In this document: positions 4,098-22,322 of the stretch, one piece after another
How the letters are laid out: every line of letters begins with the position of its first letter
Position numbering within the stretch: the first letter of the stretch is position 1
IMG/VR virus record: IMGVR_UViG_3300044612_002663
Coordinates: 1-37,023 of that record
Length of the DNA: 37,023 bases
Direction: 5' to 3' (one strand)
Origin: a virus
Position numbers and translations under genes: made by a program
The notes under the pieces: model-generated
The model's database searches: none
Seen by the model: only the letters and a program-made list of their open reading frames with translations
Told to the model about the DNA's origin: nothing

Positions 4098-5144
4098 TCA
4101 GGCTGCCGCGCGCTTATTGGGCTTGTTCAGCCCCAAAAATTTCCGAATTTCCGGCGCCATCGTGCCCGGCACCAGTTTCGTGTAGCGCTCGGTTTGGCTG
4201 ACCGTGCTCCAATCCCCCTCCGATTTCAGCCGCATCAGGTCCCGGTGCATCGCGTAATGCCAGCTTGCCCAGGTGTGGCGCAGCGTGTGGGGCGAGGCAT
4301 CGGTTATGCCGGCGCGGTTGCATGCGCCGCGCCAGGCGCTGGCGATCTGCCCGCCATACAGCCCGCCCGTGTCGGCATAGGCCAGCGGCTGCTTGCCGCG
4401 CTTGGCGGGCGGGCGGAAGGCATGGCCTTCCCGGTGCGTCAGGTTGGCTAGGGCTGCCACGGTGCGCGGCGGCAGGCTTGCCACGCGGTCTCGGCCCTGT
4501 TTGGTGTCGCGTAGCAGCGCGCGGCCATGTGTCAGATCCAGATCGGCCCATTGCAGCGCCAGCGCTTCGCTCAGCCGCGCGCCGGTGCCAAGCAAGAACA
4601 GGATCAGCGGCGCCAAATGCAGCGCGGCGGCGGCGGTGAGGGTATCGGCCTCGGCCGGGGTGAGCCATCGGGTGCGCTTGACGCCGCTGGCGCCCTTCGG
4701 CGCTTCGAAGTTTGGCATATCGCACCATTGGCGCCTGGCGGCATGGGCCAGCACAGCGCGGACGGGCGTGATCACTTCCCGCAGTTTCGTGGCAGGCTGC
4801 GCGCCCGGGCGGCACCGTGCCTGGATCACGCGGTCAATCGTGGCTTGGCTGATGTCTGAAAGCCGCTTGCCGGTCAGGCTATCCAGCAGGCGCAGCAGCC
4901 GGGCATTTTCCGCGGCGCTGCGCGGCGCTGCGTCCAGATAGGAATTGACGGCCTGGTCCCAGGTAACTACCGCCCGCGCGCCGAAAACGGCACTACGGTA
5001 CAGGCTGGCTTCGAGTTCGGCCCTGGCTTCTTCCGCGAGGCGGCGGTCAGTCGTCCGCGCAGATTGCCGGATGCGCTGCCCGGCAACGGTCCCGACGATT
5101 TGCCAAGCGCCACTGGCGCCGTGGCGGGTGAGCGTGAGGGGCAT
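4098..5144 (-). CDS. int: Tyrosine site-specific recombinase (phage integrase)
   Basis: This 348-aa integrase would recombine attP with a host tRNA-Thr gene. The catalytic domain carries R190 (GTGARLSEAL), K215 (DTKQGR), H286-x-x-R289 (HTLRHTW), W312 in the usual second His/Trp position (GDWSTVSQTERY) and the nucleophile Tyr321. Residues 55-145 resemble the SAM-like core-binding domain and the N-terminus an arm-binding domain. It is the last gene of the leftward operon and its 3' end faces the attP candidate, as in lambda. GAAGG lies 11 nt before the ATG. The upstream excisionase-like ORF overlaps its 5' end by 178 bp. Confidence 0.95.
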   Translation of the reverse strand: MPLTLTRHGASGAWQIVGTVAGQRIRQSARTTDRRLAEEARAELEASLYRSAVFGARAVVTWDQAVNSYLDAAPRSAAENARLLRLLDSLTGKRLSDISQATIDRVIQARCRPGAQPATKLREVITPVRAVLAHAARRQWCDMPNFEAPKGASGVKRTRWLTPAEADTLTAAAALHLAPLILFLLGTGARLSEALALQWADLDLTHGRALLRDTKQGRDRVASLPPRTVAALANLTHREGHAFRPPAKRGKQPLAYADTGGLYGGQIASAWRGACNRAGITDASPHTLRHTWASWHYAMHRDLMRLKSEGDWSTVSQTERYTKLVPGTMAPEIRKFLGLNKPNKRAAA

Positions 5145-9860: not shown

Positions 9861-10133
9861 CTATGCCGGCTCCGCCGCCCGCAAATATGCCGCCACGCCG
9901 GCCGCCACGCCCGCGCGAGCACCCCGATAAAACCAATCGGTGGTAAGGCCGAATTCGTCACACACCCGCACAAGCCAGATAGGGTCTGGGTAATTGTCCC
10001 CGCGCAGGTAATTGCTGAGTTTGTTTGGGGCGATTCCGGTGCGGCGGCAGAATTCAGCCTGAGATAGCCCAAGCGCATCTATCGCGATGCGGAGGTTATT
10101 CCCAACGAAGGTTTTGTGCGGGGTCGGAGGCAT
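9861..10133 (-). CDS. CI-like XRE-family repressor
   Basis: This 90-aa protein has an HTH_XRE domain: LRIAIDALGLSQAEFCRRTGIAPNKLSNYLRG at residues 14-45, followed by VCDEFGLTTDWFYRG, as in lambdoid repressors. It is short and lacks the LexA-like self-cleavage domain, so SOS autocleavage is not expected by the classic route. I choose the ATG at 10133; no Shine-Dalgarno is evident (ATATCTGTC precedes it), and TATATC close to the ATG could be a -10 for a leaderless message. It is divergent from the cro-like gene, with operator copies on both flanks. Confidence 0.8.
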   Translation of the reverse strand: MPPTPHKTFVGNNLRIAIDALGLSQAEFCRRTGIAPNKLSNYLRGDNYPDPIWLVRVCDEFGLTTDWFYRGARAGVAAGVAAYLRAAEPA

Positions 10134-10168
10134 GACAGATATACTGCCTGCAGCTTTTTTGCGTTTCC

Positions 10169-10208
10169 ATGCAGAAGGTGATTGACACGGTATGCAGAAA
10201 TCCTGCAT
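10169..10208 (+). promoter_or_regulatory. Rightward operator (OR-like) with -35 box
   Basis: ATGCAGAAATCCTGCAT at 10192-10208 is the best palindrome of the set, and a half-match (ATGCAGAA) starts at 10169, 23 bp upstream. A consensus -35 hexamer, TTGACA, lies at 10182-10187 between them, so bound repressor would cover the promoter of the cro-like gene at 10218. The -10 at 17-bp spacing (GCATGG) is poor. The sites are seen; repression of this promoter is inferred from the divergent repressor/cro arrangement. Confidence 0.65.
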
Positions 10209-10217
10209 GGTCGCGCC

Positions 10218-10430
10218 ATGTCCGATCCCTTGTCCCGTGCAATCGAAGCTGCTGGTGGGCTTGATGCCTTTATCAGCAGTATTGGTATTTCCAGCCGAAC
10301 CCTTGCGGATTGGCGCCGTTATGGGGTGCCGGACACCCGCTGCCTTGCGGTTGAAAAGGCGACCAATGGGGCGGTGACCGCCCAGGAACTGGCGGTGCAC
10401 CGCGTTGATCGCTTGCGGGGTGCCGCCTGA
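10218..10430 (+). CDS. Cro/YdaS-like regulator
   Basis: This 70-aa HTH protein matches the YdaS/Cro-like pattern: LSRAIEAAGGLDAFISSIGISSRTLADWRRYGVPDTRCLAVEKATNG, in which the WRRYGVP turn and the ExATNG end are characteristic. It is expected to oppose the CI-like repressor at the shared operators. The ATG at 10218 lies just after the operator palindrome; an upstream TTG start inside the -35 box is rejected. It is the first gene of the rightward early transcript and is followed by a convergent lipoprotein gene. Confidence 0.8.
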   Translation: MSDPLSRAIEAAGGLDAFISSIGISSRTLADWRRYGVPDTRCLAVEKATNGAVTAQELAVHRVDRLRGAA

Positions 10431-10432
10431 TG

Positions 10433-10903
10433 TCATTGCGTCCGGGGTCGATCCAGAACGCGCCGGCGCGCAGCGGCGCATTGCTCGGCGTCAGCCCGTG
10501 TGGCGCTGGCGCGGCCCATGTTCCATTCTGGGTCATCCGTCACGGCGGTGACAGTGCTGCGGTAGCGTTGAAGTTGCGCGCTGCTGACGCCGCCGCAGCC
10601 TTCGGCCAGCCCGCCCAGAAAGGTGGCGCTGTTCATGCTGAACTGCCGGTTGGGTGTGGGTGTGCTCGCATTCACAGGCGGCTGGCGTTCCCGGTTTTCC
10701 AATCTGCGCAGATCATAGCACCGCTCCTTCAGCGTGCCCGCCTGATAACCGGCGGCAATGCCGCTATAGATGCCGGCGGTCGCAAGCTGGGCTTCATAGT
10801 CGCAGCGGGCTTTCTGCGCGGGCGAAAGCCCCTCGGCAGGGTCCGGCAGGTTGCACCCCATCAGCAACAGCCCCAGGGCGGCGGCGGTAATTGGTTTCAG
10901 CAT
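10433..10903 (-). CDS. Lipoprotein, candidate lysogenic-conversion gene
   Basis: This 156-aa protein has a signal peptide (MLKPITAAALGLLLMGC) with lipobox L-M-G-C17, so it should be lipidated and exported. The mature part is soluble, with several cysteines, an AGIYSGIAAGYQAG segment and no recognised domain. A strong GAAGGAG lies upstream of the ATG. It runs against the surrounding rightward early genes, between the cro-like and CII-like genes, an arrangement typical of a moron expressed from its own promoter in the lysogen. The function might be envelope modification or superinfection exclusion; that is inference only. Confidence 0.75.
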   Translation of the reverse strand: MLKPITAAALGLLLMGCNLPDPAEGLSPAQKARCDYEAQLATAGIYSGIAAGYQAGTLKERCYDLRRLENRERQPPVNASTPTPNRQFSMNSATFLGGLAEGCGGVSSAQLQRYRSTVTAVTDDPEWNMGRASATRADAEQCAAARRRVLDRPRTQ

Positions 10904-10986
10904 CGCGTCATTCTCCTTCTCTGCCGGAATATGGCGAAGGCTTCCGGGTTTGTCATGCGGAATGGTTCCGCGATGGGGGCGCGCTG

Positions 10987-11439
10987 ATGCACCTGACCAC
11001 AGAAGAAGAACGTCGCGCGCTCAAGACCGGGTTTCGGGTGCTGGTCCAGCATGCCGGCGGTCTGGAAGCGGCGGCGGCGGCAACGCGGGTGAACAAGACT
11101 CATCTGGCAGCAAGCTATGATCAGGAAGCGAAAGATCGCTTTCCTGCGCTGGATGTTGTGGCGGATTTGGAACGCGCGGCGGGCAAGCCGGTTGTGACAA
11201 AGCTGCTGGCCGCGATGCACGGCCTGGCGCTGGTGCATGTGGAACCCATCAGCGGCTGCGCGATCAGCGCCATTGCCGCAGTCGGGCAGAATTCCAGTGA
11301 GGTTTTCGCGGCCTTCGGGCGCGCGCTTGCGGATGGCGTGATCACGCAAGCTGAGCGCGCGGTGCTGCGGCAGGAAATGCTGGATTTGGTTGCTGTCGCC
11401 ACAGAAGCGGCGGCGATTTTGGAGGGGGTGAAGAAATGA
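10987..11439 (+). CDS. Phage regulatory CII/CP76-like protein
   Basis: This 150-aa protein resembles the phage regulatory CII family of P2-like and alphaproteobacterial phages: an N-terminal half with LVQHAGGLEAAAAATRVNKTHLAASYD and then FPALDVVADLERAAGKPVVTKLLA. In this family a helix-turn-helix-like start is followed by an all-helical C-terminus. It may influence the lysogeny decision or replication onset. The ATG at 10987 is chosen because the open frame upstream overlaps the lipoprotein gene. Its stop overlaps the next ATG. Confidence 0.55.
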   Translation: MHLTTEEERRALKTGFRVLVQHAGGLEAAAAATRVNKTHLAASYDQEAKDRFPALDVVADLERAAGKPVVTKLLAAMHGLALVHVEPISGCAISAIAAVGQNSSEVFAAFGRALADGVITQAERAVLRQEMLDLVAVATEAAAILEGVKK

Positions 11440-11588
11440 AGGGTCAGTATGGTGCGCTTATTCGTGCGTCCTTATGGCGCGCTTTGGCCGGGGTGTTGTG
11501 GTGCCCCGGTGAATGGTTGTGCCGGCTGGGTGATCGCGCCGCGAAACGCGCGAAGCGAATCGTTGATGATCGGTGCCTTCGGTCATGA
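11436..11588 (+). CDS. Tiny basic protein upstream of gcrA
   Basis: This 50-codon ORF starts at an ATG that overlaps the previous stop (ATGA) and ends at a TGA overlapping the gcrA-like ATG. The product (MKGQYGALIRASLWRALAGV...) has one weakly hydrophobic segment and a basic C-terminus (RAAKRAKRIVDDR), and could be a peripheral membrane peptide. The double overlap is the main evidence that it is translated, with GGAGGGGG upstream. It may serve mainly to couple translation into gcrA. Confidence 0.5.
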   Translation: MKGQYGALIRASLWRALAGVLWCPGEWLCRLGDRAAKRAKRIVDDRCLRS

Positions 11589-12220
11589 GCGCGCATCCAG
11601 GCCCATGGGACAAGCCCGGGATGATTGATCGGCTGCGCGAATTACATGCGCGCGGCTATAGCTTCTCTGAAATTGGCAATGAACTTGGCGTGTCCAAGGG
11701 TTCCGTGGTTGGCAAGGCGCATCGGCTGAAGCTGGATGCACGGCCTTTGCCGATTGCGCTTGAAGGTGTGAAGAATAAGCCGCGCGCTACGGGTGCCCCG
11801 CGGCTTGGGGCGACGGGTGCTGGGGGGTTCCATGTTGCGCCCGTCGCCCACCAAAGCTTGGCTGAGGCATCTGCCCAGCCCGGGCCGAGCGCGGCGGCTG
11901 CTTCCGCGCATCTGTCTTTCCTCCCTGTGGTGAACTCTGCGGCTGGGGCTTCTGTGCCTCGGCCGCAGCTTTTTCCGGTGCGGGGCTGTCAGTTTCCGAT
12001 GTGGGGCGACAAGGAAAGGCTGCTGGGGGAAGAACCGCGCTTTTGCGATGCGCCGGCGCGGCGGAATGAAGAAGGGCGACAAGATAGCGCTTACTGCCCA
12101 GCGCATCACGCGCGCTGTTTCAGCAAGCGCGGGGCGGCGGAAGATAATGCGCCGGCCAGGCCAAAGGATCGCGCATGGCAGGGCCCGCCCGCCCGTGGAA
12201 GGTTCCCGGCCTATGTGTGA
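11585..12220 (+). CDS. GcrA-family cell-cycle regulator
   Basis: This 211-aa protein has the bipartite GcrA plan. Residues 8-50 hold the DNA-binding helices (MIDRLRELHARGYSFSEIGNELG, then SVVGKAHRLKL), a linker rich in Ala, Ser, Gly and Pro follows, and residues 131-180 hold the C-terminal Cys/His module (GCQFPMWGD, RFCDAPA, SAYCPAHHARCF; C135, C154, C171, C178). In Caulobacter, GcrA recruits sigma70-RNA polymerase to promoters, many carrying CcrM-methylated GANTC. A phage copy may redirect host transcription or time phage genes. The ATG at 11585 is preferred by its overlap with the upstream stop. Confidence 0.85.
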   Translation: MSAHPGPWDKPGMIDRLRELHARGYSFSEIGNELGVSKGSVVGKAHRLKLDARPLPIALEGVKNKPRATGAPRLGATGAGGFHVAPVAHQSLAEASAQPGPSAAAASAHLSFLPVVNSAAGASVPRPQLFPVRGCQFPMWGDKERLLGEEPRFCDAPARRNEEGRQDSAYCPAHHARCFSKRGAAEDNAPARPKDRAWQGPPARGRFPAYV

Positions 12221-12607: not shown

Positions 12608-13101
12608 GCGCAGCCGCCCTCGCCCCTGATCTTGTACCGCGTGGCCTGGATGCCGGCATTTACGCGCCGTCGCCCAAGCGCGGCACCAAAGCCGGTGAGC
12701 AAATTGCTTGGGCCTTCCCGGAAGAACTCACGAAGCAGGATGCGGGCCACATGGCGCGCGCGATGGTGGCGCTGGGCCTCACGCGGCGGCTGATGACAGC
12801 GCCGCGCTGCGGCACGCCGCTTTGGTACGAAGCGCGGCTGCCCCAGGTGAATGCGCTGCGCGATGACAAGCTGGATTGGCCGGTGCTGCTGATGGCATCC
12901 GCCATGGAAGCGCCGGAACAGCATGTGGTTTGGGTCTGCACTGTCTCCGCTGACTGGATCACGGGGTCGGGCGGTGCGCGCGGGCGCAGTTTTGCAAGCC
13001 TTGGCCAATACATCTGGGCGGTATCGGAATTTGAGGCCGCGCGGCGCTTGTGCCGGGCGAATGGCTATAGGGGGGTTCCACGTGTCGGCGACCTTCGATG
13101 A
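12604..13101 (+). CDS. Hypothetical protein upstream of primase/helicase
   Basis: This 165-aa protein is unrecognised. I choose the TTG at 12604: it overlaps the upstream TGA and has GGAAGG 9 nt before it, whereas the TTG at 12595 abuts that motif. The sequence contains IAWAFPEELTKQDAGHMARAMVALGLT near the start and a central LDWPVLLMASAME. Its 3' end overlaps the helicase start by 20 nt, so it likely serves DNA replication or its control. Confidence 0.6.
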   Translation: MSAAALAPDLVPRGLDAGIYAPSPKRGTKAGEQIAWAFPEELTKQDAGHMARAMVALGLTRRLMTAPRCGTPLWYEARLPQVNALRDDKLDWPVLLMASAMEAPEQHVVWVCTVSADWITGSGGARGRSFASLGQYIWAVSEFEAARRLCRANGYRGVPRVGDLR

Positions 13102-14905
13102 TGGATTTGACCGCGCCCTCAATGATGCTGGCAGGCAGTTGACGGTGGTGGAAGGCGGCAAGGGCAAGCGCCGGGGTGGGGGCGGTGATGCTCCGCCGCC
13201 CGAATCGCCGCCGCCGGAAGATTTGGATTGGTCCGCCGCGCCTGTGGAATGCTTGGGCGTGAATGGGGAGACCTGGTGGTTTGTTGATGCGTATCGGCAG
13301 ATCATCGCCATTCAGGCGGGCAAGCTTTCCGCGCGCGGCGCGTTGAATGCGCTGCTGGGTGGGGATGCCACGGGTTGGGCGGCGCGCTACTTCCCTGAGT
13401 TTGACAAGGAAGGCATGAAGACCGGGGATTATAGCCCGCGCAAGCTGCACAAGGCGCTTGCGGAACAAATGACGGTAGTGGGATTGTTTGACCCCACCAC
13501 GCCGCGCCGCGGCCCTGGCGTTTGGCTGCATCAGGGCAAGCCCGTGGTGCATGCGGGCGCCAATGTTTTCTTCGCCGATGGGGCCCGCAGGCCGAGCTTC
13601 ATTCGGGATGGCATTGCGTATATCGCGGCGCGCGCCATTGCGCAGCCGCATGATGGCCAGGATGGCCGGCCGGAAGCGGGCAGTGCCGCGCTGGCGGAAG
13701 AAGCCGAAGCGATGTTCCGGCAATGGAATTGGGAAAACGCCGCGTCAGATCGGATGCTGTTGGGCTGGTGGGTGATTGCTAATCTGGGCGCGCTGGCGCC
13801 GATGCGGCCCTTGGCCATGATTGATGGGCAGGAAGGCGCGGGCAAATCCACTCTGTTGGAAATTCTGGCGGCGCTTTGCCCGGCTGGGGAAATGACGAAT
13901 GACACCACGGAAGCCGGGTTGCGCCAGCGCATGAATCAGCGCGCGGCGCCGATGATCCTGGATGAATTCGAAGGGGAAGAATTGCTGCGCGTGTTGGCTA
14001 TGCTTCGCCGGATTGTGACCGGGGAAGGCAGCCGGTCCTTCCGGGGGCAGGGCAGCCAGACGGCAGTGGTGACAGAAGTGGTGGGCACGGCGGTGATGGG
14101 CGCGATCGGCGCGCCTGTCGCCAATTCTGCGGAAACCACGCGCATCCTGCGCCTGATGCTATGGCCCCGCGCCCCCGGTGTGCCAAGCCTGGAAAAATCC
14201 GCCTTGCTATCCTGGTGCCAGAAGGAAGCGCCGGCCTTGTGGGGCCGCGCCATCGCCGCCTGGCCGCGCATTCACGCCAATGCCGCCATGATGCGCCTGG
14301 TGCTGAACCGCGCGGGCTGTTCGCCGCGATACGCGGATATGCTGGGCTGGCTGATCGGCGCGCGGGAAGCCATGGTGGCGGATGTCGCTTTGACGGAAGC
14401 GCAGGCGGAAGAAGCCTTGCAGTGGGCTTGGGGCTGGGTGGTGACGGAAGCTGAACAGGCGGAAGACACCACGGCTGCGCGCTGCCTTCAGCATCTGATG
14501 TCATGCCCCGTACTGACCGGGCCCGGCCATTCGGAAACCGTGGCGGTATTGGTTGAACGCACCTTGCGGGAACCGGATGCCCCGGCTGCGAAGCTATTGG
14601 CCGAGATAGGGCTGCGACTGGCCCCGTACCCCATTGATGGTGGGGATACGGCGCGGGTTGGGCTGTATGTGGCAGCCGGGCGAAGGCCATCGCTGGCCAG
14701 GCTGTACCAGCAAACGGAATGGCAGGGCGGGCGCTGGGGCACGGTGCTGGCGCAGCTGCGGGCCAGGGTGGCGGATGCTGAGATACGCGCGCAGCCGATC
14801 AAGACCCGCGTGCGGTTTTCAGGAGAGAATGACAGGGCGCAGGCGGTGTGGCTGGCGCCTGAATTGCTGCCTTCGGGCGCAGCAAAGGGGTTCGGGATGG
14901 ATTGA
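13082..14905 (+). CDS. P-loop primase/helicase-like replication protein
   Basis: This 607-aa protein starts at GTG 13082 with a GGGGGG stretch 6 nt upstream; extending further up would only overlap the previous gene. It has a Pro-rich linker (about 31-47), a Walker A motif GQEGAGKST at 249-257 and a Walker B-like MILDEFE at 291-297, followed by an Arg-rich segment (GSRSFRGQG) and a helical C-terminal half. The layout matches replicative helicase or primase-helicase proteins of phages and plasmids. No primase catalytic motif is certain, so priming activity is open. The iteron-rich region directly downstream supports a replication role. Confidence 0.7.
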   Translation: MSATFDDGFDRALNDAGRQLTVVEGGKGKRRGGGGDAPPPESPPPEDLDWSAAPVECLGVNGETWWFVDAYRQIIAIQAGKLSARGALNALLGGDATGWAARYFPEFDKEGMKTGDYSPRKLHKALAEQMTVVGLFDPTTPRRGPGVWLHQGKPVVHAGANVFFADGARRPSFIRDGIAYIAARAIAQPHDGQDGRPEAGSAALAEEAEAMFRQWNWENAASDRMLLGWWVIANLGALAPMRPLAMIDGQEGAGKSTLLEILAALCPAGEMTNDTTEAGLRQRMNQRAAPMILDEFEGEELLRVLAMLRRIVTGEGSRSFRGQGSQTAVVTEVVGTAVMGAIGAPVANSAETTRILRLMLWPRAPGVPSLEKSALLSWCQKEAPALWGRAIAAWPRIHANAAMMRLVLNRAGCSPRYADMLGWLIGAREAMVADVALTEAQAEEALQWAWGWVVTEAEQAEDTTAARCLQHLMSCPVLTGPGHSETVAVLVERTLREPDAPAAKLLAEIGLRLAPYPIDGGDTARVGLYVAAGRRPSLARLYQQTEWQGGRWGTVLAQLRARVADAEIRAQPIKTRVRFSGENDRAQAVWLAPELLPSGAAKGFGMD

Positions 14906-14907
14906 AC

Positions 14908-15171
14908 TGTCCCGCTATCTGTCCCGCTGACAGGCTGATTTGTCCCGCATGAAGCGGGTAAGTCATTGAAAAGCCTAGGTGCGGGACAGCGGGACAAGCG
15001 GGACAGGGCACTTCCTCATGTGTGTGCGCGCGTCGCATGTGCGCACATTTAGGAAATAGGTGCGTCCCGCATGTCCCGCTTGTCCCGCTGTATATAATAA
15101 TAAATAAAATCAGATAGATAAATAGATAGATAAGGGACAAAGGGCGGGACAGTTTCTGGTTGGGCGGGACA
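14908..15171 (+). other. Candidate replication origin: symmetric GCGGGACA iterons with AT-rich tract
   Basis: The 288-bp gap after the helicase gene contains ten exact copies of the octamer TGTCCCGC/GCGGGACA and two near-copies. Forward copies start at 14908, 14920, 14941, 15072 and 15081 (near-copy 15063); reverse copies start at 14981, 14989, 14998, 15144 and 15164 (near-copy 15132). An imperfect dyad lies at 15012-15055 and an almost pure A/T-rich tract with GATA repeats at 15090-15133. Iterons beside an AT-rich element, next to a helicase gene, are the usual make-up of a phage or plasmid origin. No coding frame is supported here. Confidence 0.75.
14988..15089 (+). repeat. 18-bp exact inverted repeat around the origin dyad
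   Basis: AGCGGGACAAGCGGGACA at 14988-15005 recurs as its exact reverse complement at 15072-15089. Each arm spans two full iterons. Between them lies the imperfect dyad with TTCCT at 15012-15016 and AGGAA at 15051-15055 and a TGTGCGC/GCGCACA core. The midpoint of the dyad (about 15033.5) is also near the midpoint of the tight iteron triplets on both sides. Confidence 0.8.
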
Positions 15172-15193
15172 ATTCAGCGAAAGGGGCAGCGAT

Positions 15194-15874
15194 ATGGCGG
15201 AACATCGGGCGGTTAAGGGGATCACTCTGGGGGTTGGGGTTGTCCAGCCGGGGGGTGTATGGGTCACCGGGGATGGGATGGCTCAGCGCGTGATTGAATC
15301 GGCCCATGCGCGTGCGATGGCCGAGGAAGCCCGCGCCGTGGCGGCTCAGTGCCACGCGGCGCCGTTCTTCCGTGTGCCGGTGCAGTATGACCCTGAGGCG
15401 GCTGTACGGGCAGCGGAGGGGGCGCAGCGTAGGGCCGCGCGGCGGCTGATGTCTGACAAGCTGGCGCAGTTGGCGGAACGGGGCAGGATCGGCCAATGCG
15501 AATGGCGGGCGGCTTTGGAAATGCGGTACGTGGTTGAGTATGTGGAGGGTGGGCGCATTCCGCTGGTGCGGTCTCAGTTGCGGGAACGGCTGCCATCGGG
15601 CGGGGATGGCACGGGCGAGTTGATGGCGGCTGAAGAGCTGGTGAGCACGGTTTATCTGCTATGGCGGCGGTATGCTCGGCGGTATCCAGTGACGAAGAAT
15701 GCAACGCTTGAAGACCTGACGCGGGGGCCGGTGTTCAACGGCGAGGGGATTAGGCAAACGGCCATGAAGCTTAAGATTGATCAGCGCCGAGCCGAGCCTC
15801 TATTGAAGCGTAGCCTGCGCTATTGGGCTCGGCTGCGTCCTTGGTACGCTGCGGCGGCGGAAGAATGCTGTTGA
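15194..15874 (+). CDS. Unknown protein next to origin; initiator or late regulator candidate
   Basis: This 226-aa protein is preceded by AAGGGG at a good distance. It is helical and basic, with AEGAQRRAARRLMSDKLAQLAERG in the middle and a C-terminal segment that resembles a sigma-4-like helix-turn-helix (GIRQTAMKLKIDQRRAEPLLKRSLRYW). It ends with two cysteines. Position between the iteron array and the terminator before the packaging genes allows two roles: an iteron-binding replication protein, or an activator of late transcription in the manner of Q/RinA. I cannot decide from sequence. Confidence 0.6.
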   Translation: MAEHRAVKGITLGVGVVQPGGVWVTGDGMAQRVIESAHARAMAEEARAVAAQCHAAPFFRVPVQYDPEAAVRAAEGAQRRAARRLMSDKLAQLAERGRIGQCEWRAALEMRYVVEYVEGGRIPLVRSQLRERLPSGGDGTGELMAAEELVSTVYLLWRRYARRYPVTKNATLEDLTRGPVFNGEGIRQTAMKLKIDQRRAEPLLKRSLRYWARLRPWYAAAAEECC

Positions 15875-16089: not shown

Positions 16090-16611
16090 ATGGCCGCTGA
16101 CGGTAAATTGACGGTCGGCACCAAGGCTGAGTATGCCGCGCATCGGGGCTGTTCCCGCGCGTATGTGTCCAAACTGATCCGCGAAGGTAAGCTTGACGCA
16201 CCGGCCTTGATGGCTGATGGCAAAGTGAATTTCATCCTAGCTGACCAGATGATTGGCAAGCCATCCAGCGCTGACGCCGAATCGCTGTTTTCTGCGCCAT
16301 CGGCCGGCGCCCCGAACTTCGCCGAAGAACGTGCCCGCCGCGAAGCCGCAGAGGCCACGCTGGCTGAAATGAAATTGCAGGAAAAGCAGCGCGAAGTGCT
16401 GAAGGCCGATGCCGTAGCGCAGGCCGCGACCAGTGTTTTCGGGCGTGCCATGGCCAAGTTTTCAGAAGCTTGGGTGGAACTGGCCGTGGTGCTGGCACCA
16501 ATGACCGACCCCGCCGCCATTGCTGACCGCCTGGCTGATGAACAGCGCCGCGTGATGGCGGGGCTACACAAGGAATTTATGGAGGATGCTGCCAACCGCT
16601 CCGCCGCGTGA
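16090..16611 (+). CDS. Terminase small subunit (Nu1-like)
   Basis: This 173-aa protein has an N-terminal winged-helix DNA-binding region at about residues 12-48 (KAEYAAHRGCSRAYVSKLIREGKLD and a VNFILADQMIG wing), a helical charged segment at 76-100 (AEERARREAAEATLAEMKLQEKQRE) and a C-terminal helical part. This is the layout of lambda Nu1-type small terminases, which recognise the packaging site and hand DNA to the large subunit. It is followed, with a 26-nt overlap, by the large subunit. Repeats just upstream may be its target. Confidence 0.8.
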   Translation: MAADGKLTVGTKAEYAAHRGCSRAYVSKLIREGKLDAPALMADGKVNFILADQMIGKPSSADAESLFSAPSAGAPNFAEERARREAAEATLAEMKLQEKQREVLKADAVAQAATSVFGRAMAKFSEAWVELAVVLAPMTDPAAIADRLADEQRRVMAGLHKEFMEDAANRSAA

Positions 16612-18616
16612 TGCTGAGGCGCTGCTGCTAAATGCAGTAGCCTTCGCTTGCCGTGTGGCTCCCCCGCGTAACGTGGCGGAATGGGCGGAAGCGGAACGCA
16701 TTGTGGCGGCCGAATCGGGCAGCCCTTGGCCTGGTCGCTGGAAGACTGATCGGGTGCCCTATCTGCGCCAGATCATGGAAGTGATGACGCTCAGCCATCC
16801 GGCCAGGCGCGTGACGTTCCTGAAATCCGCGCAGATCGGGGGGTCTGAGGCTGCGCTGAATCTGATCGGCCAGGTGATGGCCGAAACGCCGGCCCCCGTG
16901 CTGGTGATGTTGCCTTCGATTGACATGATGCGCGGCTATAACCGCCTGAAGCTTGATCCCATGATCAGCGCCAGCCCGGCCCTGGCGGCGCGCGTGGAAG
17001 AAGTGGTGGCGCGATCCGGTGAGGAAAGCACTGCCACCTTCAAGCGGTTCCCTGGCGGGTATTTGCAACTTCTGACCGCCAATTCATCGGCCAACCTGCA
17101 GATGCGATCTGCCCGGGTGCTGCTGATGGAAGAAGTTTCTGACTATCCGATGGACGCGGATGGCCGCGGTGATCCGGTTCGCCAGCTTGAAGCACGCGCC
17201 ATTATCTATGCGGGCCGCGAGAAAATCCTAAAGGTCAGCACGCCGGCGGAAGAAGATTCATGCCGCGTCACGGCAGCTTATGAGGCTTCAAGCCAGGGCA
17301 AGTTTCTGGTGCCCTGCCCGCATTGCCAAACGAAGCAGACGCTGGAATGGGAAAGCCTCCGCTGGCCGAAGGGACAGCCGCAAGCCGCGCAGTACCATTG
17401 CAGCGAATGCGGTACGGGGATTGATCCGATCCATCGCCCGGCGATGCTGGCGCAGGGCGAATGGGTGCATGCAAAGCCGGATTTGTTGCAGGAACATGCG
17501 GGCTTCGCGATCAATGCGCTGTATAGCCCAACGATTTCATGGGCCGACCTGGCCGCCGAATTCGAAGAAGTTAAAGACGATCCCGAAGGCCTGAAAACCT
17601 TCACGCAGCAAAAGCTGGGCCGCGCCTGGCGCATTGCGGGTGAAGCACCGGAATTCCAGCGGCTTTATGATCGCCGCGAAAGCTGGGCGCCTGGTACTGT
17701 CCCGAAGGGCGGGTTGGTCCTGACCGCCGGGATTGACGTTCAGCGCAACCGGATCGAGTTGTTCATCTGGGCCTGGGGGCGCCTTCGGCAAAGCTGGCTG
17801 GTGGATCACATCATCATCGCTGGCAGCCCCTTCGCTTGGGCAACCTGGGAGCAGGTGGCGGCGGCGATTGAAACCATCTACCCGCATGAGGCAGGCGGCG
17901 CGTTGCCGATCAGCCTTTCCGCAGTGGATAGCGGTGACGGCACCACCACGGCCGAGGTCTATGCCTTCGTGCGCAAGGTTGGCCAGCGCCGCGCCATTGC
18001 CGTGAAGGGCCGCGATGCTCAGCCCCAGGCCATTGCGCCAGGCGGCAAGGTGGATGTGCGGCGCAGCGGCAAGCGGGTTGGCCAGTTAAAGCCTTGGCTG
18101 GTGGGATCATCCTACCTCAAGGGGGAATTCTACGGGCAGTTGCGGTTGGAAAAGCCCACTGCCGAAAGCGCGGCAGGCTATCCGCCGGGGTATGTGTTTT
18201 TGCCCGAGCATTTGGCCGGCGAAGAAGTGTGCCGGCAGTTGGTGTCGGAAGAAATCCGCCGCCATAAAGTCCGCGCCGGGGTGTTCCGGCAGGAATGGGT
18301 GAAGACCCGCGAGAGAAACGAAGCGCTGGATTGCCGCGTTTATGCCCGTGCCGCCGCCGCGCTGCTTGGGATTGAACGCTGGCAGGAATCGGAATGGGCG
18401 CGGGCTGAATTGCAACTGGCCCTTATGCAGCCCGCCCGCCGCGCGCTGCAGACGAATTTGGCGCTTGATGCTGAAGAAGAAGCGCCGCTTGAAGAAACTC
18501 AGCCGGATGAAGCGCCGGTTGATGAACCCGCTACCGTGCCGGCCCATGCCGCACCGCCGCCGCGCCCTGCCTTCCGCCCGCGTGGCTGGGGTGGGGCTGC
18601 TGGCGGCGTCTGGTAA
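16586..18616 (+). CDS. Terminase large subunit, GpA family
   Basis: This 676-aa packaging motor and nuclease follows the lambda GpA family. Residues 80-88 (KSAQIGGSE) correspond to the adenine/Walker A region, 178-186 (VLLMEEVSD) to Walker B, and C244/C247 with C272/C275 form a zinc-ribbon (CPHC, CSEC). The nuclease domain starts around GLVLTAGIDVQRNRIELFIWAWG. A Glu/Pro-rich C-terminal extension (LEETQPDEAPVDEPATVPAHAAPPP) probably contacts the portal. GpA-type terminases usually make cos ends, so the virion genome is probably cut near here and the window is permuted relative to it. Confidence 0.95.
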   Translation: MLPTAPPRDAEALLLNAVAFACRVAPPRNVAEWAEAERIVAAESGSPWPGRWKTDRVPYLRQIMEVMTLSHPARRVTFLKSAQIGGSEAALNLIGQVMAETPAPVLVMLPSIDMMRGYNRLKLDPMISASPALAARVEEVVARSGEESTATFKRFPGGYLQLLTANSSANLQMRSARVLLMEEVSDYPMDADGRGDPVRQLEARAIIYAGREKILKVSTPAEEDSCRVTAAYEASSQGKFLVPCPHCQTKQTLEWESLRWPKGQPQAAQYHCSECGTGIDPIHRPAMLAQGEWVHAKPDLLQEHAGFAINALYSPTISWADLAAEFEEVKDDPEGLKTFTQQKLGRAWRIAGEAPEFQRLYDRRESWAPGTVPKGGLVLTAGIDVQRNRIELFIWAWGRLRQSWLVDHIIIAGSPFAWATWEQVAAAIETIYPHEAGGALPISLSAVDSGDGTTTAEVYAFVRKVGQRRAIAVKGRDAQPQAIAPGGKVDVRRSGKRVGQLKPWLVGSSYLKGEFYGQLRLEKPTAESAAGYPPGYVFLPEHLAGEEVCRQLVSEEIRRHKVRAGVFRQEWVKTRERNEALDCRVYARAAAALLGIERWQESEWARAELQLALMQPARRALQTNLALDAEEEAPLEETQPDEAPVDEPATVPAHAAPPPRPAFRPRGWGGAAGGVW

Positions 18617-20345: not shown

Positions 20346-22322
20346 ATGACTGAAATGCAAACTGCGGAAGTGCCGCGGCTTGAAGCGCGCTTTGCGCCCA
20401 GCACCTTCAATGCGGATACCCGCACGGTGGAACTGGTGTGGAGTACGGGCGCCCGTGTGCACCGCACCGATTGGCGCAGTGGCCAGCCTTTCATTGAAGA
20501 ACTAGCCATGACTAAAGAAGCGGTGAATTTGGCCCGGCTGAATGGTGGCGCACCGCTGCTGAATACGCATGGGCAGTATGATCTGGGTGATGTGATCGGC
20601 GTGGTTGAACGCGCCTGGATCATGAATGGCGAAGGCCGCGCCCAGGTGCGCTTTTCTGGGCGCGATGCAGTCCAGCCCATCTTGAATGATGTGCGCGATG
20701 GCATCCTGCGCAATGTCTCTGTCGGCTACGTGGTTGCTGATGAAGACTGGCAGGAATCGCGTGGGCCGGATGATGTGTTGGTCCGCACCGCCAAGAAGTG
20801 GACCCCGTTCGAGATTTCGCTTGTCCCTATCCCGGCCGATGCCAGCGCGCAGGTGCGTGCGGCCGGTGCCGCTTCCACGGCAGAAGGCAACAACGCGCCT
20901 AGGCGCGAAGGAGAGAGCATGGCCGATACTACGGTCCCCGCCGCCGAGCAGGCGCGCGACAATAATGTGGCATCTGCCGCCGCGGCGGTTGATGTCAGTG
21001 CGGTGCGCACGCAGGAACGCGCGCGCATTGAAAGCCTGGAAGAACCCGCCCGTCTGGCGCGTTCCCAAGGGCTGGATGAAACCCAGGTCAATGCGCTGAA
21101 GGCGCGCGCCATCAACGGTGACCATGACGCGGCCTGGCTGCGTGCCGAATTGTTCGGCGCCATTGTGGCGGCTGATGAAACCCGCCCGGCCCTGAAGCCT
21201 GGTCCGGTGAGCCAAATCGGCCGTTCTTATGAAGACCCGGCCAATATCGTCGACGCCATGGCGACTGCCATTGCTGCCCGCCACATGCCCGCGGTCGCCA
21301 GCAAGGCGGGTGAAGGCCAGTGGCGCAACTTCGTGGGCCTTCGCCCTTCCGATATGCTGATTGAATTGGCGCAGGCGCGCGGTGAACGGGTTTCTTCCCG
21401 TGACCGTGAAAAACTGATCGCCCGCGCCTTTCACACTTCGTCTGACTTCCCGCTGCTGCTGGCCAATGCTGGCAATAAAATGCTGGAAGCGGGCTATGCG
21501 CTTGCGTCCCCTTCTTATCGGACGTTCTTCGCCCGTCGCCGCTTCAATGATTTCAAGGCGCATTCATTCCTGACGGCGGGTGATTTCCCGTCTCTGCAGG
21601 CTTTGGGTGAGGGCGGCGAAATCAAGCGCGGCACTGTCAGCGAAAAGCGCGAACAGATCACGCCTGGCACTTTTGCCCGCGGTGTGGCTGTCACGCGCCA
21701 GATGCTGGTGAATGATGATCTTGGCGCCTTTACTGACTTCGGCACCATGATCGGCCGCCGTATTGCGGATTGGGAAAACGCCACGGCCTATGGCGTGGTG
21801 AATACCGCTTCCGGTGACGGCCCGACGCTGGCCGAAGGCAGCGCGGCGGTGTTTGCCGCTGGCGGCACGCGCAACAATAAGGCGGGCACCGCCAGCGCGG
21901 TGACGGATGTGGCGCTCGGCCTTGGCTTCAATGCCATCAAGGCGCAGTCCAGCTTGGATGGCCTGAAGCTGAATATCCAGCCGCGCTATTTGGTGTGTTC
22001 GGTCATTCAGGAATTCGTGGCGGCGAAATTCGCGTCTTCCACGGTGGTCCCCGCCGCGCCTGGCAACGTCAACCCCTTCGCGGGCCGTTTTGAAGTGGTG
22101 TCGGATGCCAATATCCCGAACAACCGCTGGTATCTGTTTGCCGACCCCGCCGCCGCGCCGGTCTATGTGTACGGCTATGTGGGCGACAATGAAGTTCCGC
22201 AGGTGCGCGTGGGCCAGCCCATGGGTGTGGATGGCACGGTGGTTGAAGTGGTGCATGACTTCGCGGTTGGCGCCATTGATTTCCGCGGCGGCTTCTTCAA
22301 CGCGGGCGCTGCGCCGGCATAA
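20346..22322 (+). CDS. Prohead protease-major capsid protein fusion
   Basis: This 658-aa protein joins an HK97-type prohead protease to the capsid protein. Residues 10-172 are the protease, with candidate catalytic His75 (LLNTHGQYDLGDVIG), Ser125 (LRNVSVGY) and Glu156 (WTPFEISLVPIPAD). Residues 192-285 form an Ala/Glu-rich, helical scaffold-like segment, and residues from about 290 are the HK97-fold capsid (RTFFARRRFNDFKAHSF, then FARGVAVTRQMLVNDDLGAF). The single frame has no stop between the parts. An internal ATG at 20919 with a strong ribosome-binding site can make a 467-aa scaffold-capsid product alone. Confidence 0.9.
   Translation: MTEMQTAEVPRLEARFAPSTFNADTRTVELVWSTGARVHRTDWRSGQPFIEELAMTKEAVNLARLNGGAPLLNTHGQYDLGDVIGVVERAWIMNGEGRAQVRFSGRDAVQPILNDVRDGILRNVSVGYVVADEDWQESRGPDDVLVRTAKKWTPFEISLVPIPADASAQVRAAGAASTAEGNNAPRREGESMADTTVPAAEQARDNNVASAAAAVDVSAVRTQERARIESLEEPARLARSQGLDETQVNALKARAINGDHDAAWLRAELFGAIVAADETRPALKPGPVSQIGRSYEDPANIVDAMATAIAARHMPAVASKAGEGQWRNFVGLRPSDMLIELAQARGERVSSRDREKLIARAFHTSSDFPLLLANAGNKMLEAGYALASPSYRTFFARRRFNDFKAHSFLTAGDFPSLQALGEGGEIKRGTVSEKREQITPGTFARGVAVTRQMLVNDDLGAFTDFGTMIGRRIADWENATAYGVVNTASGDGPTLAEGSAAVFAAGGTRNNKAGTASAVTDVALGLGFNAIKAQSSLDGLKLNIQPRYLVCSVIQEFVAAKFASSTVVPAAPGNVNPFAGRFEVVSDANIPNNRWYLFADPAAAPVYVYGYVGDNEVPQVRVGQPMGVDGTVVEVVHDFAVGAIDFRGGFFNAGAAPA
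20908..20921 (+). promoter_or_regulatory. Internal ribosome-binding site and in-frame start in capsid fusion
   Basis: AAGGAG at 20908-20913 stands 5 nt before an ATG at 20919 that is codon 192 of the fusion. It lies at the junction between the protease and the scaffold/capsid part. Initiation here would yield the capsid precursor without protease, in the way lambda C contains the start of Nu3. The site is seen directly; use of it is inferred. Confidence 0.75.

Follow-up and report, generated by a model that had tools for sequence, protein, structure and literature searches.

Gene context of the repeat array

The window analyzed here, that is, the whole of a 37,023-bp IMG/VR virus record, reads by its gene content as a temperate tailed phage. 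In addition to the genes listed below, it carries virion genes for a portal, a fused protease/capsid, a tape measure and a tail fibre. One 658-aa ORF (20346–22322) matches both prohead protease and major capsid protein. In a bacterial genome collection, the sole match to the window was a Roseomonas MAG, at 95% identity. GcrA-like genes are phage-borne both in the window (11573–12220) and in Microcystis phage Mwe-JY13, where the gene is annotated (L239, 37376–38050). An array of short repeats lies between the gene of a 660-aa helicase and that of a 226-aa protein. The features of the region and its surroundings are as follows.

4098–5144, minus strand: integrase
9861–10481, minus strand: repressor-like gene
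10891–11439: CII-like gene
11573–12220: GcrA-like cell-cycle regulator
12923–14905, plus strand: 660-aa P-loop helicase (phrog_21086), proposed self-loading origin initiator
14420–14872, plus strand: C-terminal part of the helicase (~residues 500–650), proposed iteron-binding region, from secondary-structure order and covariation with the iteron
14807–14815, plus strand: codons R629-V630-R631 in the wing motif TRVRFSG; alignment columns 826 and 828, which track the variable iteron bases X2 and X1, respectively
14908–14948, plus strand: left outer iteron triplet, TGTCCCGC at 14908, 14920 and 14941; slots kept in relatives
14981–15005, minus strand: left inner iteron triplet, GCGGGACA at 14981, 14989 and 14998
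15017–15048, no strand: central alternating purine–pyrimidine tract (17 + 15 nt) with a 7-bp hairpin
15063–15088, plus strand: right inner iteron triplet, near copy CGTCCCGC at 15063–15070 (1 mismatch), TGTCCCGC at 15072 and 15081
15089–15133, no strand: AT-rich tract, proposed DNA unwinding element (6/45 G+C), the lowest-GC 45-mer of the window
15132–15171, minus strand: right outer iteron triplet, near copy AAGGGACA at 15132–15139 (2 mismatches), GCGGGACA at 15144 and 15164
15194–15874, plus strand: 226-aa protein of no known family, downstream of the array and restricted to close relatives
16090–18616: terminase, starting ~0.9 kb downstream of the array

Twelve iterons surround a central tract and an AT-rich tract

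Positions 14908–15171 contain ten exact copies of the octamer TGTCCCGC/GCGGGACA and two near copies. The initial annotation had reported the same copies within 264 bp, in the same order: three forward, three reverse, the centre, three forward, the AT-rich tract and three reverse. This clustering is far above that of shuffled DNA. The entire window has 12 exact octamers, compared with 2.08 in shuffles (sd 1.34, maximum 5), and the remaining two, at 308 and 6961, lie beyond the array and correspond to the chance level. When the window was dinucleotide-shuffled 40 times, the maximum for any 8-mer was 4 per 264 bp, versus 10 in the array. The array is intergenic, flanked by ORFs that end at 14905 and begin at 15194, and the distance from the helicase stop to the first iteron is 3 bp. 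A literature text search with the octamer returned unrelated papers only, and Rfam gave nothing relevant.

The symmetry of the array differs in detail from the first description. A perfect inverted repeat is present, but it extends over 20 bp (14986–15005/15072–15091) rather than 18 bp. A dyad centre had been placed at ~15033.5; we find the tight triplets centered at ~15034, the 20-bp repeat at 15038.5 and the small hairpin (TGTGCGC, 15023–15029, paired with GCGCACA, 15041–15047) at 15035. Relatives keep the central element as an alternating purine–pyrimidine tract, with no single fixed dyad. The tract is possibly Z-DNA-prone. Of 76 related arrays, 19 contain an alternating run of 16 nt or longer, compared with 8 of 1325 control windows; the tract is therefore enriched rather than general.

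The AT-rich tract is 87% A+T in a window of 62% GC overall, and its mean column identity across 15 contigs is 0.90. This lowest-GC 45-mer is flanked by the triplets at 15063–15088 and 15132–15171, an arrangement seen in origins of the SaPI/PICI type.

Given its location between early and packaging genes, the array might instead be an operator or promoter region for the downstream late genes. However, we found no sigma-70-like promoter in 14700–15400, operators do not typically place an AT-rich stretch between iteron triplets of inverted orientation, and in relatives the array stays with the helicase rather than with any single downstream gene. We regard this explanation as very improbable, although the array may have a minor regulatory role.

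Conservation in close relatives

The initial annotation had named absence of the octamers from relatives with conserved flanking genes as evidence against an origin. Close relatives were taken as 17 viral loci with helicases 78–97% identical to that of the window and with readable 3' flanks. The origin reading withstands this test, as all 17 carry the array in the same place, with the same slots and spacing, and each has 10–12 intact core GTCCC sites. Among 15 sequences (the window and 14 relatives), 88 of 96 iteron positions are invariant, versus 87 of 168 spacer positions (p 4e-12, a guide only because the sequences share ancestry). For this comparison, the degenerate slot was set at 15134–15141, not 15132–15139, which moved two columns. 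One helicase copy (L013, 4001–5971) contains a stop codon in translation, possibly due to a coordinate offset.

The helicase resembles self-loading initiators in predicted fold

The 660-aa helicase matched no Pfam family. No primase domain was found within it by Pfam, PHROGs or alignment with primase-bearing relatives, and none of the window proteins scanned was a primase. For the full-length AF2 model (mean pLDDT 70), the top PDB fold match by Foldseek was SCCmec Cch, which is related to SaPI Rep (5dgk; E 1e-10 over 576 alignment columns). Next came the NrS-1 primase-polymerase CTR, PriRep1 with dsDNA and the SaPI5 primase-helicase; 7pds and 7ola were among the matches. On the basis of this model, the putative initiator belongs to the Cch/SaPI Rep class, an assignment that concerns fold class only.

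The C-terminal part is predicted to comprise a winged-helix-like unit, two short helices and a beta-hairpin, with R629 and R631 on a predicted strand of the hairpin. When modelled alone (pLDDT 80), this part had zero PDB fold matches, so 'winged helix' refers here to secondary-structure order only.

Distant relatives keep the array but change its word

Three loci whose helicases are only 26–27% identical to that of the window (L063, L094 and L122) carry TGTCCCG arrays, again centred on an alternating purine–pyrimidine tract. To sample helicases blind to the array, we used the L122 helicase as the sole query and retrieved 80 loci, 76 of which had enough 3' sequence. A 6-mer repeated at least six times within 400 bp 3' of the stop codon was seen for 63 of the 76 helicases, compared with 9 of 380 gene-body windows. 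The iterons share a frame, C-X1X2X3-AC, in which the variable word is GGG, GGA, GGT, GTA, GTT, CTA or CTC, depending on the lineage. The layout recurs, with different words, in named phages, including phi1422 (GGTAACA), S-H1 (CCTAACGG) and MinM1 (CTCACA). On a tree of the ATPase region, iteron type changes 15 times. A set of 17 helicases was too diverse in alignment for a pattern search.

The array is 5' of the helicase gene in Acjo20 and 1.7 kb 3' of it in MQ4. PBb002 and Mwe yielded no array, and the surroundings of the ZRG1 helicase likewise lacked one; a ZRG1 repeat near 39.85 kb was rejected, as it falls within an annotated gene.

These phages bear on another explanation, namely that the array is a cos or pac packaging site for the terminase at 16090–18616. 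Terminase genes do start ~0.9 kb downstream, and lambda cosB has repeated protein-binding sites. But the arrays of Acjo20, MQ4 and Rhizobium phage 16-3 stay with the helicase and not with the terminase. In Acjo20 the array is at 3.1–3.5 kb and TerS at 42.4–42.8 kb, and in 16-3 the array lies just after 56249, several kb short of the record end at 60195. Of all the explanations considered, we give this one the least credence.

A second helicase type with the same iteron frame

TGTCCC arrays were also found 3' of RepA-like helicases. When this family was sampled by protein, the same frame was recovered with the words GGG, CAG, CAT, GTG and CGG, phage 16-3 being among its members. The C-termini of the two helicase types gave no profile match to each other (hhalign probability 0.4%), and the shared frame may be convergent. 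A common host factor, suggested by the shared TGTCCCGC, was considered and set aside: the sharing is largely an artefact of searching for that word, because the protein-chosen RepA-like sample has other words.

C-XXX-ACA arrays lie 3' of the RepA-like genes of L041, L072, L079, L088, L105, L129, L137, L140 and L147, and several RepA-like loci have a hairpin such as ACACCCCTATAGGGGTGT between inverted copies. The last of these loci is phage 16-3, where the TGTCACGC array adjoins a RepA-like helicase unrelated to that of the window; 14 copies of CGTGACA are located directly 3' of p101 (L147, 5206–5605). This array is likely an unannotated origin in a classical phage.

Two helicase residues track the iteron word

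To relate iteron word to protein sequence, we compared 36 non-redundant helicases. Column 828 splits perfectly with X1, R occurring with G (31 cases) and W with C (5 cases). It is the only perfect X1 column among 808, the next best having an nMI of 0.53. For X2, the most informative of 808–810 columns is 826, with K, R or Q in 10 GG-types and V, P or A in 21 GT-types. Both columns sit in a C-terminal motif, K-x-R-F-x-G, and correspond to R631 and R629, respectively, in the window. In 20 held-back loci, residue 828 predicted X1 in every case and residue 826 predicted X2 in 19, the exception being L278; many of these loci are close kin of the discovery set. A matched-pair analysis again ranked column 828 first, whereas column 826 was not first for X2. 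Independent switches number ~4 each for X1 and X2, too few for sign tests on independent pairs to reach 0.05. Very distant relatives gave the X1 rule no support: in KLER1, R goes with a C-type word (GCTTACA), and MinM1 could not be confidently aligned at the X1 column. Because the held-back loci are often kin and independent switches are few, the covariation amounts to strong guidance, short of proof.

Covariation of this sort could reflect joint inheritance of neighboring DNA rather than contact, an explanation that rivals the binding step and not the origin itself. At most ~100 bp separates the C-terminal codons from the array, and the two might thus have been exchanged together by recombination. 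The small number of independent switches fits this explanation, as does the finding that the wing is less alike in pairs of different type (0.52 versus 0.68). On the other hand, linkage should mark many C-terminal columns, yet column 828 alone is perfect, and the pairing of Arg or Lys with G matches known contact chemistry. Moreover, Acjo20 and MQ4 obey the rule even though their arrays do not adjoin the C-terminal codons; both have GTA-type arrays, consistent with their wing residues (R,T and K,V). On balance, we think joint inheritance unlikely, if a serious contender.

A further explanation keeps the array as an origin or copy-control site but assigns iteron binding, and loading of the helicase, to a different protein of the phage or host. 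In lambda-type systems helicase and binder are separate proteins, and the gene of the 226-aa protein, one candidate, follows the array in close relatives. No family was found for this protein in Pfam, PHROG or NCBIfam. It is confined to close relatives and missing beside the same TGTCCCGC word in L063, L094 and L122, and is therefore not a conserved binder; it is also absent from L156–L235. We conclude that this protein probably does not bind the iterons. Were a host factor responsible, a separate word for each helicase lineage would be unexpected. The iteron word instead follows the wing residues of the helicase, and therefore the helicase, not the 226-aa protein, is likely the binder. Overall, we judge binding by another protein improbable.

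It is quite possible, if somewhat short of probable, that X1 and X2 of the C-XXX-ACA iteron are each determined by a wing residue (R/W and K/V-type, respectively). The two residues would form a small, exchangeable specificity code, by which lineages switch through few residues, and the same frame would have arisen in unrelated RepA-like helicases. If this is true, origin specificity could be predicted from one protein motif for many uncultured phages.

A candidate replication origin

Taken together, these data make it highly probable that the array is a temperate-phage replication origin of the SaPI/PICI kind, probably read by the adjacent helicase via its C-terminal region. The initial annotation had likewise proposed an origin, and that reading is strengthened by comparative sequence data: the array is kept in relatives, it is usually present beside helicases chosen blind to it, and its neighbor is predicted to fold like self-loading origin helicases. 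GC skew, put forward earlier as a way to locate the origin, lends no support, being positive throughout with no switch at the array. Replication from this origin is probably theta-type.

We envision that the 660-aa helicase would bind the octamers through its C-terminal region, with the beta-hairpin (R629 and R631 in the window) reading the variable iteron bases. Triplets of opposite orientation would set helicase rings face to face. The rings would then melt the AT-rich tract, perhaps making use of the purine–pyrimidine tract, and start unwinding, after which host or other phage proteins would prime and copy the DNA. As lineages diverge, initiator and origin would change specificity jointly.

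This origin type, occurring in a particle-encoding phage and many relatives, bears on the source of satellite replicons. Iteron words that switch along with two residues also provide a natural data set on initiator–origin recognition, one amenable to a cheap mutational test.

Comparison with known systems

In SaPI and PICI elements, the origin lies 3' of rep and consists of short iteron sets around an AT-rich melting region (PMC6092414, PMC7581432). Cch2 and SaPI Rep each use the C-terminal domain to bind iterons situated 3' of the gene that encodes them (PMC7581432). The locus described here is similar in several respects: the array is directly 3' of the gene for the proposed initiator helicase, as in 63/76 relatives, short iterons flank an AT-rich tract, and the predicted fold class is the same. 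Unlike these satellites, the window has its own terminase, portal, capsid, tape measure and tail fibre genes. Its helicase belongs to phrog_21086, with neither a Pfam family nor a fused primase, and its array has four triplets, the inner pair being separated by the purine–pyrimidine tract. Among PDB folds the helicase is closest to SCCmec Cch, at ~12% identity, but the published Cch2 iteron, AAGTG, occurs three times, versus twelve octamers in the window.

Other iteron-based systems share fewer features. The alpha protein of phage P4 is a helicase initiator with a C-terminal DNA-binding domain and a primase domain, and requires a second site, crr. P4 ori has octamer-type iterons in both orientations and an AT-rich region; its word, TGTTCACC, begins with TGT, as does that of the window. 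In contrast to P4, no fused primase domain or crr-like second site was seen in the window. Lambda ori is also a phage origin with iterons adjoining an AT-rich tract, but its iterons are located within gene O, which encodes a protein other than a helicase. In the window, by contrast, the array falls between genes, and it is the helicase that is proposed to bind it. In geminiviruses, the iteron sequence and a short segment of the rolling-circle Rep vary together; the joint variation seen here is similar, though the Rep proteins are unrelated. What appears to be new is an origin of the SaPI/PICI kind, as judged from sequence comparison, in a phage that encodes its own virion proteins and whose helicase falls outside Pfam.
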